Assembly: GCA_021773095.1 (NCBI GenBank)
Contig: JAJFKR010000033.1
Location: 1 to 64,000, forward strand
DNA length: 64,000 nt
Source of the DNA: Woeseiaceae bacterium
Lineage (GTDB): Bacteria > Pseudomonadota > Gammaproteobacteria > Steroidobacterales > Woeseiaceae
Direction of reading: 5' to 3'
Positions 5,433-15,233 of the stretch are shown here, piece after piece; within the stretch, counting starts at the first letter, position 1; each line of letters starts with the position of its first letter. Made by a program: the position numbers and the translations under genes. Under the pieces are notes generated by a model that saw only the letters and a list, made by a program, of their open reading frames with translations, was not told the DNA's origin and did not search any database.

Positions 5433-7127
5433 ATGCTAGAGAACTGCCGATGGCGGTCAGCAAAGACGCTGATTTCGCTATCTACCCTGATAAGTATTCT
5501 GAATCTTGCACCCGCACTGGCTGATGAGAACGTCTCATCGGAGGCCAGCGCGCACATTTTGCAAGCCGAAATGGCGCTGCAGCGAGATGAGTATCTCAAG
5601 GCAACCGTCGCATATCGCAAGGCAGCGGAGCTGAGCGGTAGTGTCGAAATCGCTCGCAAGGCGACGCGCATGGGTTTTACCTATGGATTCAATGACGAGG
5701 CGCTGCTGGCGGCCAAGCGTTGGGTCAAACTTGATAAGAATAGCGATGAGGCGCGCGCCTTTTTGGGCCAATTATACTTTCGCGTCGATGATCTGCGTAA
5801 TTCCCGGCGCCAGTTCGAACGCCTGATAAAGGCCGAACCGGATGATCCTGGCAAGCGGCTGCTGTCATTACTCGGCTACCTGGCTGACGAGCGCTTACCC
5901 GAACGCGCCGACAAACTCATGCGAATTCTTGCCAAACCCTACCCGAATTCTGCGATGGCACATTACGCGGTTGCGGTGCTCGCATTGCAGGCCGAAGACG
6001 TAGAGCACGCCAAGCAAAGTGCAACTCGCTCAATGGAGCTTGATCCCGACTATATGCGGCCGAAGCTGCTCTACGCACGGGCGCTGATGTTCGAAGGGGA
6101 CAACGACAAGGCGATCGAATATCTGGCCTACATCATTGGCGACAGTCCGCGACCCGATCCTGATGCGCGTATGGAGCTTGCGCTCTTGTACATGCTCTCG
6201 GGCCGTGACGACGACGCTTTGAGCCAGGTGAACCAGGTATTGATGGAACAAAGCGGGCGTCTGGATGCGCTGCGCCTGATGGCCATTATCAATTTCCGTC
6301 TGGAACGGCTGGATGCGGCCTGGGATGATTTCGAAGATTTGCTGGCCAGCGGCGAATATCGGATGGATGCGTTGTTCTACCTGGCCCGCATCGCGGATTA
6401 TCGTGAGCAATTCGACCGTGCTGTCCGTCTGTACAAGGAAGTTCGATTTGGCTCGAATACGGTGTTTTCCCAGCGCCGAGCCAGTGCGTTACTGGCGCAC
6501 CAGCTGGACGATGTCGATGGCGCATTTCAGTTACTGGATGAATTTGCTGACGCGTCGCCGAACAACGCGGTCGATGTGGTTGCGCTCAAAGCGCAATTGT
6601 TGATATCGCTTGAGCGATACGATGAAGGTCTGGCGCTATTTGATAAAGCGATCGAATACCGCCCTGACAACGAAGACATTACTCTCGGTCGCGCGGAGTT
6701 ACTGCTGAAGATCGGTCGGGTCGACGAGGCGGTTGCTGAGTACCGTCAGGCGATAAAGCAATGGCCGGACAGTGCCGCTGCACTCAATGCGTTTGGTTAT
6801 ACGCTGGCTGATCGGACTGATCAGTATGGGGAAGCAGAAAAACTGATCCGCAAAGCGTTGAAAATCGAACCGAATAGCGCCGCGATTATCGACAGTCTGG
6901 GTTGGGTTCTCTACAAACTTGGACACCATGAAAAGGCCTTGTTCGAATTGCAACGTGCTTACGAAAAACTCGATGATCACGAGGTGGCGTCGCATATTGT
7001 CGAGGTTCTCGCAGTGTTGGAGCGAACCGACGAGGCTATCGAATTTCTCGAGTCCGCAGAAAAGAAAACCCCTGACAGCGAGTTACTGAAAAGTGTTCGT
7101 GAACGTTTTTTCTCCGAAACACCCTGA
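5433..7127 (+). CDS. Tetratricopeptide repeat protein
   Basis: Signal-like N-terminus and many TPR units (e.g. SAAIIDSLGWVLYKLGHHEKAL); upstream of lolB. Confidence 0.9.
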   Translation: MLENCRWRSAKTLISLSTLISILNLAPALADENVSSEASAHILQAEMALQRDEYLKATVAYRKAAELSGSVEIARKATRMGFTYGFNDEALLAAKRWVKLDKNSDEARAFLGQLYFRVDDLRNSRRQFERLIKAEPDDPGKRLLSLLGYLADERLPERADKLMRILAKPYPNSAMAHYAVAVLALQAEDVEHAKQSATRSMELDPDYMRPKLLYARALMFEGDNDKAIEYLAYIIGDSPRPDPDARMELALLYMLSGRDDDALSQVNQVLMEQSGRLDALRLMAIINFRLERLDAAWDDFEDLLASGEYRMDALFYLARIADYREQFDRAVRLYKEVRFGSNTVFSQRRASALLAHQLDDVDGAFQLLDEFADASPNNAVDVVALKAQLLISLERYDEGLALFDKAIEYRPDNEDITLGRAELLLKIGRVDEAVAEYRQAIKQWPDSAAALNAFGYTLADRTDQYGEAEKLIRKALKIEPNSAAIIDSLGWVLYKLGHHEKALFELQRAYEKLDDHEVASHIVEVLAVLERTDEAIEFLESAEKKTPDSELLKSVRERFFSETP

Positions 7128-8870: not shown

Positions 8871-8928
8871 CTTCGCGCGCAAGGCGCGCTCCTACCCTTC
8901 CTCTCGGAGCGCGCCCTGCGCGCGACAC
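8871..8928. repeat. Inverted pair of REP-like GTAGGAGCGCGCC...GCGCGCGA palindromes
   Basis: CTTCGCGCGCAAGGCGCGCTCCTAC (reverse copy) facing CGGAGCGCGCCCTGCGCGCGACA. Confidence 0.75.
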
Positions 8929-10402: not shown

Positions 10403-11494
10403 ATGGCAATTACCTGTGGCATTGTCGGCCTGCCGAACGTTGGCAAATCGACCCTGTTTAATGCACTGACCGCGAATGAGATCGCGGCCGAGAACTATCC
10501 GTTCTGCACCATCGAGCCGAATGTCGGCATTGTGCCTGTGCCGGATCTGCGCCTCGACGCGCTGGCTGGAATCGTAAAGCCGCAAAAAATCCTGCCGACG
10601 ACGATGGAGTTTGTAGATATCGCGGGCCTGGTCGCTGGTGCCTCGCAAGGTGAGGGCCTCGGCAATCAATTCCTCGCAAATATTCGTGAGACCAATGCGA
10701 TAGCACACGTAGTGCGTTGTTTCGAGAACGACGATGTCACACATGTAACCGGCAAGATCGACCCGCTCGATGACATCGAAACCATCAACACCGAGCTGGC
10801 ACTGGCCGATCTTGAGTCGGTTGAGAAGCAGTTTGACAAAGCTTCGCGTACAGCGAAAACCGGTCAGAAAGACGCGATCGCACTTCGCGATGCTCTGGCC
10901 GGTATCAAGGCTCACCTTGACGATGGCTTGCCGGTTCGCTCGTTGGAAAAGACCGACTTGCAGAGGGATATCTTGCGTGGCGTGCACCTGATAACCGACA
11001 AGCCCGTAATGTATGTGGCAAACGTTGACGAAGACGGTTTCGAGGGTAACCCGCATCTTGATGTCGTGCGAAAATACGCAAGCGAAGAGGGTGCCGAGGT
11101 CGTCGCGATGTGTGCGTCAATCGAGGCCGAGATCGCGTTACTGGATGATGAAGACAAAGCGGTGTTTCTGTCGGATCTTGGTTTTGACGAACCGGGTCTG
11201 AATCGTGTTATTCGTCACGGATATGCGTTGCTCGGTCTACAAACCTATTTCACGGCAGGCGAGAAAGAGGTGCGAGCCTGGACTACCAGGGTCGGCGCGA
11301 CGGCGCCACAGGCCGCCGGTGAGATTCACACGGATTTTGAAAAAGGCTTTATTCGCGCCGAAGTCATGGCCTACGACGATTTCGTCACCGGCAATGGTGA
11401 GCAGGGTGCGAAAGAAGCGGGCCGACTTCGGCTGGAAGGCAAGGACTACGTAGTCCAGGAAGGCGATATAATGCATTTCCGTTTCAACGTGTAG
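10403..11494 (+). CDS. ychF: Redox-regulated ATPase YchF
   Basis: [19 protein letters not shown] and TGS-domain C-terminus ([20 protein letters not shown]). Confidence 0.98.
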
Positions 11495-11514
11495 GAGCGC
11501 GCCCAGCGCGCGAC
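11491..11514. repeat. REP-like palindrome GTAGGAGCGCGCCCAGCGCGCGAC
   Basis: Same unit as at 8871-8928; overlaps the ychF stop codon. Confidence 0.75.
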
Positions 11515-11581: not shown

Positions 11582-11658
11582 GGTGATGTAGCTCAGTTGG
11601 TTAGAGCGACGGACTCATAACCCGTAGGTCGGTGGTTCAAATCCACCCTTCACCACCA
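11582..11658 (+). tRNA. tRNA with CAT anticodon, probably elongator tRNA-Met
   Basis: GGTGATGTAGCTCAGTTGGTTAGAGC...CTCATAA...GGTGGTTCAAATCCACC...CTTCACCACCA; tRNA-Ile2(CAT) not fully excluded. Confidence 0.9.
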
Positions 11659-11660
11659 AA
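11634..11660 (+). repeat. att-like direct repeat copy 1 (tRNA 3' end)
   Basis: GGTTCAAATCCACCCTTCACCACCAAA. Confidence 0.85.
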
Positions 11661-11695
11661 CAAGAAAGGCCACCCCGTTGGGGCGGCCTTTCTTG
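11661..11695 (+). terminator. Terminator after tRNA-Met
   Basis: CAAGAAAGGCC(A)CCCC GTT GGGGCGGCCTTTCTTG hairpin. Confidence 0.85.
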
Positions 11696-11841
11696 TTTGT
11701 GGAAGGCCGGATTTGTTTTCCGAGGAGTGTTTGCTAGTCGACGCGGCATCCCCGAACCGGCAGCTCATCTTTTTTTTCTGACGGGTACCCTATAGGGAAT
11801 GATATTAGAGCAGCCTGTGGCTTCATCTCAAGTAGACACTC

Positions 11842-11868
11842 GGTTCAAATCCACCCTTCACCACCAAA
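11842..11868 (+). repeat. att-like direct repeat copy 2
   Basis: 27/27 identical to 11634-11660. Confidence 0.9.
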
Positions 11869-12183
11869 TGAAAAAAGCCTTGCGAATCAAATAGTTAGCG
11901 GGGTTTTTCGGTTGTGGACTACGGGATCGAACTGCGATTCCACATCGGCCTGAAAACGTTGCCCCAATCGGCCTGGATTCGTCCAAGAAAATACTACGAC
12001 CGCCGAAAGAGTCCATTGTCGTTCCGTGGCCCTGTTCGCCAAGTAATTGGATTGCGGTTGCAATTGACTGGCTAGCAAAAGTATTTGGGGGCACTTTTGG
12101 GGGCATCTAATCTGAATGTCTCGCCAGATGCCCCCAATCGATTTTCTTGCCTTTGCGGCGTGCTGAATAGCAGTTATCATATT

Positions 12184-12253: not shown

Positions 12254-12601
12254 GTGGCTACACAAGCAACTCTCGAAGCCCTTTTTGGCGGCCAGGCTGC
12301 CGCCAAAGTGTTGCTCTTCATACAGAACTATGAAGAGGGGTACGCGAGTGGGATTGCCAAAACGTTCGAGATGCCAGTCAGCGAAGTCCAAAAGCAGCTG
12401 CAAAAATTCGAGGAGGCGGGTGTGTTGGTTAGTCGGATGGTCGGCACCAGTCGAATCTACACCTGGAATCCACGCGACCCGGCCCTAGATGGTTTGCGAC
12501 TGTTGCTTCAGAGCACGTTGGACCTTGGAATTCCGGATGAAAGGATAGAGAAATATTTTCGACAGCGCCGGCGACCGCGGCGCAAAGGAAAGCCGCTCTA
12601 G
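12254..12601 (+). CDS. Winged-helix DNA-binding protein (putative antitoxin/regulator)
   Basis: MPVSEVQKQLQKFEEAGVLVSRMVGTSRIYTWNP; RBS aaggagg then GTG at 12254; stop adjacent to next start. Confidence 0.75.
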   Translation: MATQATLEALFGGQAAAKVLLFIQNYEEGYASGIAKTFEMPVSEVQKQLQKFEEAGVLVSRMVGTSRIYTWNPRDPALDGLRLLLQSTLDLGIPDERIEKYFRQRRRPRRKGKPL

Positions 12602-13165: not shown

Positions 13166-13407
13166 CGTAGTACCGAACGCTGGGAGGGGCTAATAAGTTG
13201 CGCATTGAGTTCGAGCAATTGAGCTCAGAGGGCAGGAATATTAAACGTAAATCACGATGCGATATGGTGACCTGGATGCGCAAGCTGATACTTCCGATTT
13301 GGTCCGGAGAAAGCCGGATAACTTGGGGGCAACAGCGGGGGCACCAACTTGAATTGATCAGTGGAAATCACAACCAAATCAGAAAGATACAGTGTTCCTG
13401 ACGTAGT

Positions 13408-13422
13408 ACCCTTCACCACCAA
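13408..13422 (+). repeat. att-like direct repeat copy 3 (core)
   Basis: ACCCTTCACCACCAA identical core. Confidence 0.85.
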
Positions 13423-13432
13423 TTCACCGTCC

Positions 13433-13469
13433 AGAGCCGCCCAGAGAAATCCGGAGTGGCTCTTTTTTT
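13433..13469 (+). terminator. Terminator-like hairpin after att copy 3
   Basis: AGAGCC...GGCTCT followed by TTTTTT. Confidence 0.65.
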
Positions 13470-13669
13470 GACCTAAATACAGTGAGTTACGGGGAAACCC
13501 CGTCCAATGCTGTCCAGGTATATTCATTGACAGCGGGGGGCATTTTGAGGGCATGTCACGACAATCCTTGGGAGTGCTTCCAGCTCTTGCTAAGCTTGAT
13601 TCATCACTTGTTAAGTCAAGAATAATAAAATAAACTTGAATTAGTTATTAATAATTCAAGGTTGTCACT

Positions 13670-14938
13670 ATGAGAAGAGATGAGTTGGCCGGTAGCCTGC
13701 GTCAGCCATATACCCAGCAACGGGGCCTCGGAGTCGAGAAGATTGACAAATCCGGCTACGAAAACGTGTGGTTCGTCGTTCCTCCGAAGCCGCCTGTTGC
13801 TATTGTTGAAAAGCTGGACCTGGTGCTGGTTCGTGATGCAATCCAGGCTATCCAGACACGGACATCGTTGTCGACGGCTGACGAAATTCAGAAAACGCTG
13901 GCTTACCTCCTGGTCCGACGGGAAGCCGTATCGTCTTCGAGAATGGAGGGTACCTGGTCTACCGTGGACGAGGTTCTGTCGCCGGCCATCTCCAGCGCTG
14001 ATCGTTCCGCCACGGCGGCTGTTCGCGGCTACGCTAATGCGTTGGCCCATGGGGTCGAGGCTGTCCAAATCGCCGGATTGGTGGCGACCACGCCGGCATT
14101 ACTGTGCAAATTGCACACACATGTGATGCAAAAAGACCCCGGCTTTGCAGGAGTCGCTGGCAGACTGCGGACGCCGGGCCAGCCAGGAGCGATCGTTCAG
14201 ATTGGCAGCTTCGGTCGCAAAGAGGATTCGATCTATAACCCGGCACCTCCGCACCACGTGGCTCGCTGCCTCGATGCAGTTCTTGGCTGGATGTCGGACG
14301 AATCAGTGCTTGAGCCTGGTGATGCTGGCATGGGTTTGTCCTTACCTGTTCGTATGGCAGTCGGTCACGCCCACTTTGAGGCTGTACACCCATTTAACGA
14401 CGGCAATGGTCGTATTGGCAGGATTTTGTGGGCGCTGCAGATGGTCGCTGCCGGCAAGCTGCCTTTGTACCTGTCAAGCTACGTGGAGACAGAACGAGCT
14501 GAGTACGGCGAGGCATTACAAGAGGCACAAAAGAAACTTAAGTATCGCCGAATCATTGAATTCGTCTGCCGCTCGGTCATCGCCAGCAGCGCGGAAGAGG
14601 GCGAGACGCAGCAGGCACTTTGTGATCTGCCCGCGGAGTGGCTTCGCCGAGGGAAGTTCCGTCGAGGATCCTCGGCCGAGCGTGCGCTCACCTTGTTACT
14701 AAGAATGCCGCTTCTAACAATCAAAGCAATGGCGAACGAACTCGAGGTGTCAGTGCAGGCCGCAAGTGACGGAATTAGACGACTTGAAAAAGCTTGTGTT
14801 GTTCGCGACCGTAGTGGTCACGGGCGGCGTAGGGTATATGCTGCCGAAGAAGTAATCAGTGTTTTGGCGCGACCTTTCGGAGCGGACCTCGATGTGGTGT
14901 TGGAGGGTGCTCGGAGCGTTCTGACAAACTCAGGCTGA
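13670..14938 (+). CDS. Fic family protein (class II, N-terminal inhibitory motif)
   Basis: HPFNDGNGRIGRILWAL Fic core; SSSRMEGT inhibitory motif; C-terminal wHTH-like domain. Confidence 0.93.
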   Translation: MRRDELAGSLRQPYTQQRGLGVEKIDKSGYENVWFVVPPKPPVAIVEKLDLVLVRDAIQAIQTRTSLSTADEIQKTLAYLLVRREAVSSSRMEGTWSTVDEVLSPAISSADRSATAAVRGYANALAHGVEAVQIAGLVATTPALLCKLHTHVMQKDPGFAGVAGRLRTPGQPGAIVQIGSFGRKEDSIYNPAPPHHVARCLDAVLGWMSDESVLEPGDAGMGLSLPVRMAVGHAHFEAVHPFNDGNGRIGRILWALQMVAAGKLPLYLSSYVETERAEYGEALQEAQKKLKYRRIIEFVCRSVIASSAEEGETQQALCDLPAEWLRRGKFRRGSSAERALTLLLRMPLLTIKAMANELEVSVQAASDGIRRLEKACVVRDRSGHGRRRVYAAEEVISVLARPFGADLDVVLEGARSVLTNSG

Positions 14939-15217
14939 CGGATACGCGGCTGTTGCCATCACGCAGCGTCCTCTCAAGTTCTGACAAGGCTGTAACAGTA
15001 CTCATTGAAATGAGCGAATCACGCTGAAAACCGACGTAACTCAGGCCCTAATCTTCAATCAGCTCTCGCCAGATCTTGATGTTCGATTTGGAAAGAGTAA
15101 ATTCCGATAATGTCTGAAGACGACCGGAAATCATGGGGGAAAGTCTGGGGGCAATTGGGCAAACGGGTAAGCACTAAAGCTATATTAATCAATAATGTAT
15201 AGAGTTCATACGGTAGC

Positions 15218-15233
15218 ACCCTTCACCACCAAA
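15218..15233 (+). repeat. att-like direct repeat copy 4 (core)
   Basis: ACCCTTCACCACCAAA identical core. Confidence 0.85.

Follow-up and report, generated by a model that had tools for sequence, protein, structure and literature searches.

Many genomic islands carry no recombinase. CIMEs related to ICESt1 are att-flanked, lack integration and transfer genes and lie in tandem at one site; they are described as decayed ICEs or IMEs that are moved in cis with an adjacent functional element (PMC5704250). Genomic islands at ssrA in Dehalococcoides are stacked in tandem behind the RNA gene, and 15 of them have no integration module (PMC3146451). MITEs and CALINs, which are also recombinase-less, rely on a recombinase supplied in trans (PMC11389934). 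In the open-licence literature these three were the closest precedents. The locus described here lies in a window of 64 kb (the whole stretch of DNA analysed) from a Woeseiaceae genome, G000. Two of its islets, B and C, are att-flanked, tandem and without integrase or transfer genes, as CIMEs are, and like the ssrA islands they are integrase-less and lie in tandem behind an RNA gene, here tRNA-Met. Islets B and C are bounded by attL and attR, with att-like ends at the core copies starting at 11853, 13408 and 15218. The array has the following features:

11582..11658, + strand: tRNA-Met (CAT), the integration target (ARAGORN)
11645..11659, + strand: core copy 1 (ACCCTTCACCACCAA, 15 bp), 3' end of the tRNA
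11853..11867, + strand: core copy 2, junction of islets A and B
11885..11897, + strand: IHF-like box AATCAAATAGTTA at the islet B left end, offset +31
12087..12105, + strand: left arm pair of islet B, GGGGGCA at 12087 and 12099
12129..12135, - strand: inverted arm site, islet B left end
12254..12601, + strand: islet B gene 1, winged-helix HTH protein of 115 aa
12602..13165, + strand: islet B gene 2, 187 aa, directly behind the winged-helix gene
13325..13331, + strand: islet B right arm site 1, 77 bases to CCCTTCACCAC
13337..13343, + strand: islet B right arm site 2, 65 bases to CCCTTCACCAC
13377..13389, + strand: IHF-like box at the islet B right end, offset -32, 7/9 positions
13408..13422, + strand: core copy 3, junction of islets B and C
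13423..13535, + strand: islet C left end, homologous to the left end of integrase-bearing elements
13536..13553, + strand: degenerate left arm pair of islet C (GGGGGCATTTTGAGGGCA), copies at 13536 and 13547
13670..14938, + strand: islet C gene, Fic-family protein, SoFic-like, 422 aa
15135..15141, + strand: islet C right arm site 1, GGGGGAA
15147..15153, + strand: islet C right arm site 2, GGGGGCA
15187..15199, + strand: IHF-like box at the islet C right end, offset -32, 8/9 positions
15218..15232, + strand: core copy 4, islet C right end

Islet B holds two ORFs and islet C one. The first gene of islet B gave a weak PADLOC match to PDC-M05A, and a G050 island holds a homologue that is 85% identical. 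A family search with the second gene, relaxed thresholds included, matched no family; a GGAAV...SKDLDF stretch, picked out by eye, suggests that it may encode the nucleotidyltransferase of an AbiE-like pair. Islet A (11659-11867) measures 208 bp from the tRNA end to the next core and has no arm pair. At core copy 2, 27 bases are identical to the tRNA end, a longer match than those of islets B and C, and islet A is possibly a remnant left by another integrase. The window also contains intergenic GC-rich inverted repeats of REP-like type (GTAGGAGCGCGCC..) at 8873-8925 and 11491-11513.

The right ends of islets B and C each carry two GGGGG(C/A)A motifs with a 12-bp period, at the positions given in the original prediction (GGGGGCA at 13325 and 13337; GGGGGAA at 15135 and GGGGGCA at 15147). 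Between the second motif and ACCCTTCACCACCAA (starts 13408 and 15218) there are 64 bases in both islets, as had been claimed; the count is 64 to the shared A just before CCCTTCACCAC and 65 to the first base of CCCTTCACCAC. Exact matches to GGGGGMA-N5-GGGGGMA numbered three in the window, every one within islets B or C, and GGGGGCA-N4-6-GGGGGCA occurred twice in the 3.41-Mb genome, both times in these islets. With up to two mismatches, the pair had 5 matches in the window against 1.4 expected, and 3 of 100 shuffles reached 5. The left ends carry copies that the original prediction lacked: islet B has a pair at 12087/12099 with an inverted site at 12129, and islet C a degenerate one at 13536/13547. 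The right pair of islet C includes GGGGGAA.

The original prediction had been made to depend on whether the spacing held in other islets, and it came through this test. Both distances, 77 and 65 bases, recur exactly in nine further pair-bearing right ends from four genomes (five in G050, including G050:C32:24999, two in G049 and one each in G048 and G056). Counting islets B and C, identical distances are seen in eleven pair-bearing right ends of five genomes; these ends are partly kin by descent and so not fully independent. Among the same-family genomes searched, mostly metagenome assemblies or drafts (G000 itself is 89% complete), 9 of 107 contain the pair; the named pair-bearing genomes are MAGs of Woeseiaceae, including one whose label reads only Proteobacteria. 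When any gap of 50-80 was allowed across 84,980 species genomes, all 8 matches had a gap of 65; they come from the records of G049, G050 and G056 already counted, and this search therefore tested gap length and added no new ends. A profile search returned weaker right ends in G050, G048, G054, G057 and G058, with a motif at or within 1 base of 77 and/or 65, which weigh less because the profile itself favours this spacing; a weak profile match in G086 has its motif at 73. The pair has been lost at several array cores (G050 240410, G049 166187 and islet A of the window).

The sequence between motif pair and core had been described as otherwise dissimilar. This holds for most of it, with only 25 of 56 positions identical between islets B and C, but not for an IHF-like box (WATCAANNNNTTR), whose start in both lies exactly 32 bases ahead of the core. 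This offset was the best for an IHF-like box in 14 of 15 right ends. Across eight right ends, with near-copies left out, the summed IHF score was 62 of 72, a score that none of 5,000 shuffles reached, and the remaining interval has diverged to a mean identity of 47%. The order of arm pair, IHF-like box and core matches that of a lambda-type attP arm. An IHF-like box also occurs in left ends of the type seen in islet B, between +31 and +33 and with 9/9 positions in nearly all. This is weaker evidence, because the left ends concerned are homologous to one another and the box is part of a terminator-like hairpin.

To which recombinase the motif belongs is indicated by integrase-bearing elements. 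In G101, G003 and G058, GGGGGCA copies lie directly behind tRNA-Met, with an integrase gene next in line. This motif-linked integrase has Arm-DNA-bind_3, Phage_int_M and Phage_integrase domains, the P4-like arrangement, and in its N-terminal part it matches arm domains of island integrases with solved structures (3ju0, 3jtz). GGGGGCA lies within about 80 bp upstream of int in all eight family integrases that are at least 58% identical to this one; these sit at tRNA-Met or tmRNA. Specificity of the motif for tRNA-Met was ruled out by the two tmRNA cases (G105 and G066), and the motif therefore goes with the integrase rather than with its target. In more distant integrases that position is taken by different 7-mers (for example GGGTATC, GTGGTACT and TTTGTGCA), usually also as 12-bp repeats. 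Overall, 12 of 22 related integrases have an exact 7-mer that recurs at lag 12 in their upstream sequence, against 0.14 expected, with letters that vary by clade.

The same association appears in viral contigs. In a set collected by the pair alone, 17 of 25 such integrase ORFs have the pair at most 300 bp upstream, where 6% would be expected; most of these integrases share 36-57% identity with the Woeseiaceae integrase. For viral pairs that do not precede an integrase, the best of 125 offsets for an IHF-like box lies 32-33 bases past the second motif, as in Woeseiaceae. Nothing relevant to GGGGGCA as an arm site turned up among the listed titles and abstracts of open-licence papers. Upstream of the G105 tmRNA gene (G105:C1:2281211-2282107; L047 about 6212-7108), six GGGGGCA copies lie 177-182 bp apart, apparently as parts of a longer tandem repeat.

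G009, which belongs to another genus, has a complete element with an integrase, about 13.5 kb long, that extends from tRNA-Met to its right end. In that right end the outer motif lies at 77, the second motif is degenerate and an IHF box sits at -32. The element also encodes a 2087-aa SpvB/TcdB-midN/RHS-type protein (L100:3676-9939, - strand) and a second tyrosine recombinase (Integrase_1; L100:11729-12595, + strand). The ends of islets B and C share arm sites and geometry with elements that bear a P4-like (Arm-DNA-bind_3) integrase. The proposal that the motifs are arm-type integrase sites is accordingly upheld at the level of sequence comparison: the motif sits beside P4-like integrase genes, has the same geometry with or without int, and has letters that track the integrase clade.

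Islets B and C encode no integrase, recombinase or transfer family and so do not qualify as autonomous P4-like islands or IMEs. Phage_integrase had no match in the islets of the window or in G050:C26, G050:C32, G048:C76, G048:C40 and G049:C19:164-315 kb, so that a hidden integrase is ruled out for these islets and arrays. At E <= 1e-40, the motif-linked integrase had no relative in G000 (89% complete), G050 (99% complete) or G048; a helper elsewhere in G000 is ruled out at this threshold, and no motif pair lies beside the integrases that G000 has. A search for an exact empty site via the downstream S9 peptidase gene yielded none, the gene lying elsewhere in G049 with homology that ends at the gene ends.

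The original prediction had placed islets B and C in one element family. Their right ends and recombination system bear this out, but their left ends are of two types. Over 132 bp, that of islet C shares 80% identity with its counterpart in the G101 element, which bears an integrase, and on this ground islet C looks like an element of the integrase-bearing type in which int was replaced by the Fic gene. That of islet B is of a second type, common to tandem arrays in G048, G049 and G050, which precedes many different cargoes and was never seen beside an integrase.

The annotated islands of G050 have metabolic cargo (peptide uptake and nitrate assimilation). Nutrient cargo of this sort, along with the targeting of a tRNA, was the sole ground for considering a Tycheposon. 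One integrase-less island (G050:C26:227393-240410; L041 / L091) encodes a kinase/phosphatase, an MFS transporter, and pyridine nucleotide-disulphide and molybdopterin oxidoreductases, and looks like a nitrate assimilation cluster. In G049, a stretch of 115 kb behind tRNA-Met (G049:C19:165219-280787; L103-L106, L094, L044, L045) has four cores and no tyrosine recombinase, and an 86-kb interval within it may hide degenerate cores.

We consider it likely that the motif pairs are arm-type sites of a P4-like integrase that targets the 3' end of tRNA-Met, and that the integrase-less islands are mobilised in trans. The sites are well supported by the comparisons above, and the sequence also shows their fixed geometry, the tie between motif letters and integrase clade, and the lack of this integrase in the islets and in the available genome; we infer binding by the integrase, IHF bending and mobilisation in trans. 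An incoming element of the same family would supply the integrase, which would grip the arm pair through its N-terminal domain. IHF at -32 would bend the 64-bp segment so that one integrase could contact arm and core at once, which would fix the spacing, and the catalytic domain would then work at the 15-bp core. A passenger island with complete ends and no int could in this way be excised or integrated in trans. Because islets B and C have complete recombination ends and no integrase, they could be excised or integrated by the integrase of such an incoming element, and repeated insertion at the tRNA end would stack islands behind the tRNA. Neither G000 (89% complete) nor G050 (99% complete) has a helper now, and present-day mobility is therefore only a candidate property.

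A more far-reaching version is that islands with B-type ends form a true integrase-less lineage with swappable cargo, spread by any P4-like integrase that reads the arm 'address'. We put this forward tentatively, as a possibility that falls a little short of an even chance. The cargo of such a lineage would range from 1.5 to >20 kb and would include defence-like genes, nitrate assimilation and peptide uptake, and the address would be the 12-bp-period repeat upstream of each P4-like integrase.

The main rival to mobilisation in trans is that islets B and C are dead remnants, decayed in the manner of CIMEs, whose ends are immobile fossils of integrase-bearing elements. It fits islet C best, with its partly degenerate arm pairs and a left end derived from the integrase-bearing type, and it agrees with a G000 genome that has no helper and with array cores that have already lost the pair. 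However, arm pairs, IHF box and core have stayed at exact distances while the rest of the interval fell to 47% mean identity, which suggests selection for function until recently, and the B-type left end fronts many cargoes and never adjoins an integrase. On balance, we regard stranded fossils as unlikely, though a serious alternative.

Direct repeats close to att sites may also be excisionase sites, and the original prediction had named excisionase as a second candidate. The repeats adjoining att would be compatible with sites for an excisionase (RDF) or another accessory factor. This is less likely than integrase binding, since the motif occupies both ends, varies in copy number next to int and follows the integrase across tRNA-Met, tmRNA and unrelated viral contigs, and since other integrase clades carry other repeats at that place; we consider it improbable. 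That the equal spacing reflects coincidence or recent duplication of one right end, for which the mere two islets of the window left room, is hardly credible: identical distances in nine further right ends from four other genomes already refute coincidence, and the low identity of the B and C intervals (25/56) speaks against recent duplication.

In this array the ends of integrase-less islands can be linked to one particular integrase clade through arm sites, an IHF-like box and a constant geometry, so that dependence on a helper can be put to a direct test. The rule of a 12-bp repeat upstream of P4-like integrases could serve to locate arm sites, to match helpers with passengers and to mark island ends in metagenomes. 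Should the arm 'address' prove true, pairs of helper and passenger would be predictable from sequence.

In phage lambda attP, the P' arm consists of the core, an IHF site and adjacent arm sites; the islets have the same order at a similar distance, but their arm letters and arm-binding domain differ, and their right end has two sites with a 12-bp period. Arm sites together with IHF are a feature of tyrosine integrases, and whereas the Dehalococcoides ssrA islands use a serine recombinase, the proposed helper here is a P4-like tyrosine integrase. Its Arm-DNA-bind_3 domain is shared with P4-like islands (integrases of the P4, CP4 and HPI type), which, unlike islets B and C, encode their own integrase. 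In contrast to MITEs and CALINs, the islets have no inverted-repeat ends or attC arrays and are tRNA-targeted with attP-like ends. They differ from CIMEs in that neither their array nor the available genome (89% complete) has an integrase-bearing element, and in that B-type ends appear as a lineage of their own with many cargoes. Origin by decay, as in CIMEs, would suit the left end of islet C, which is homologous to that of integrase-bearing elements (whose conjugative or mobilizable nature is putative), but the left end of islet B is different. Islets B and C are best read as putative helper-dependent, CIME-like islands.
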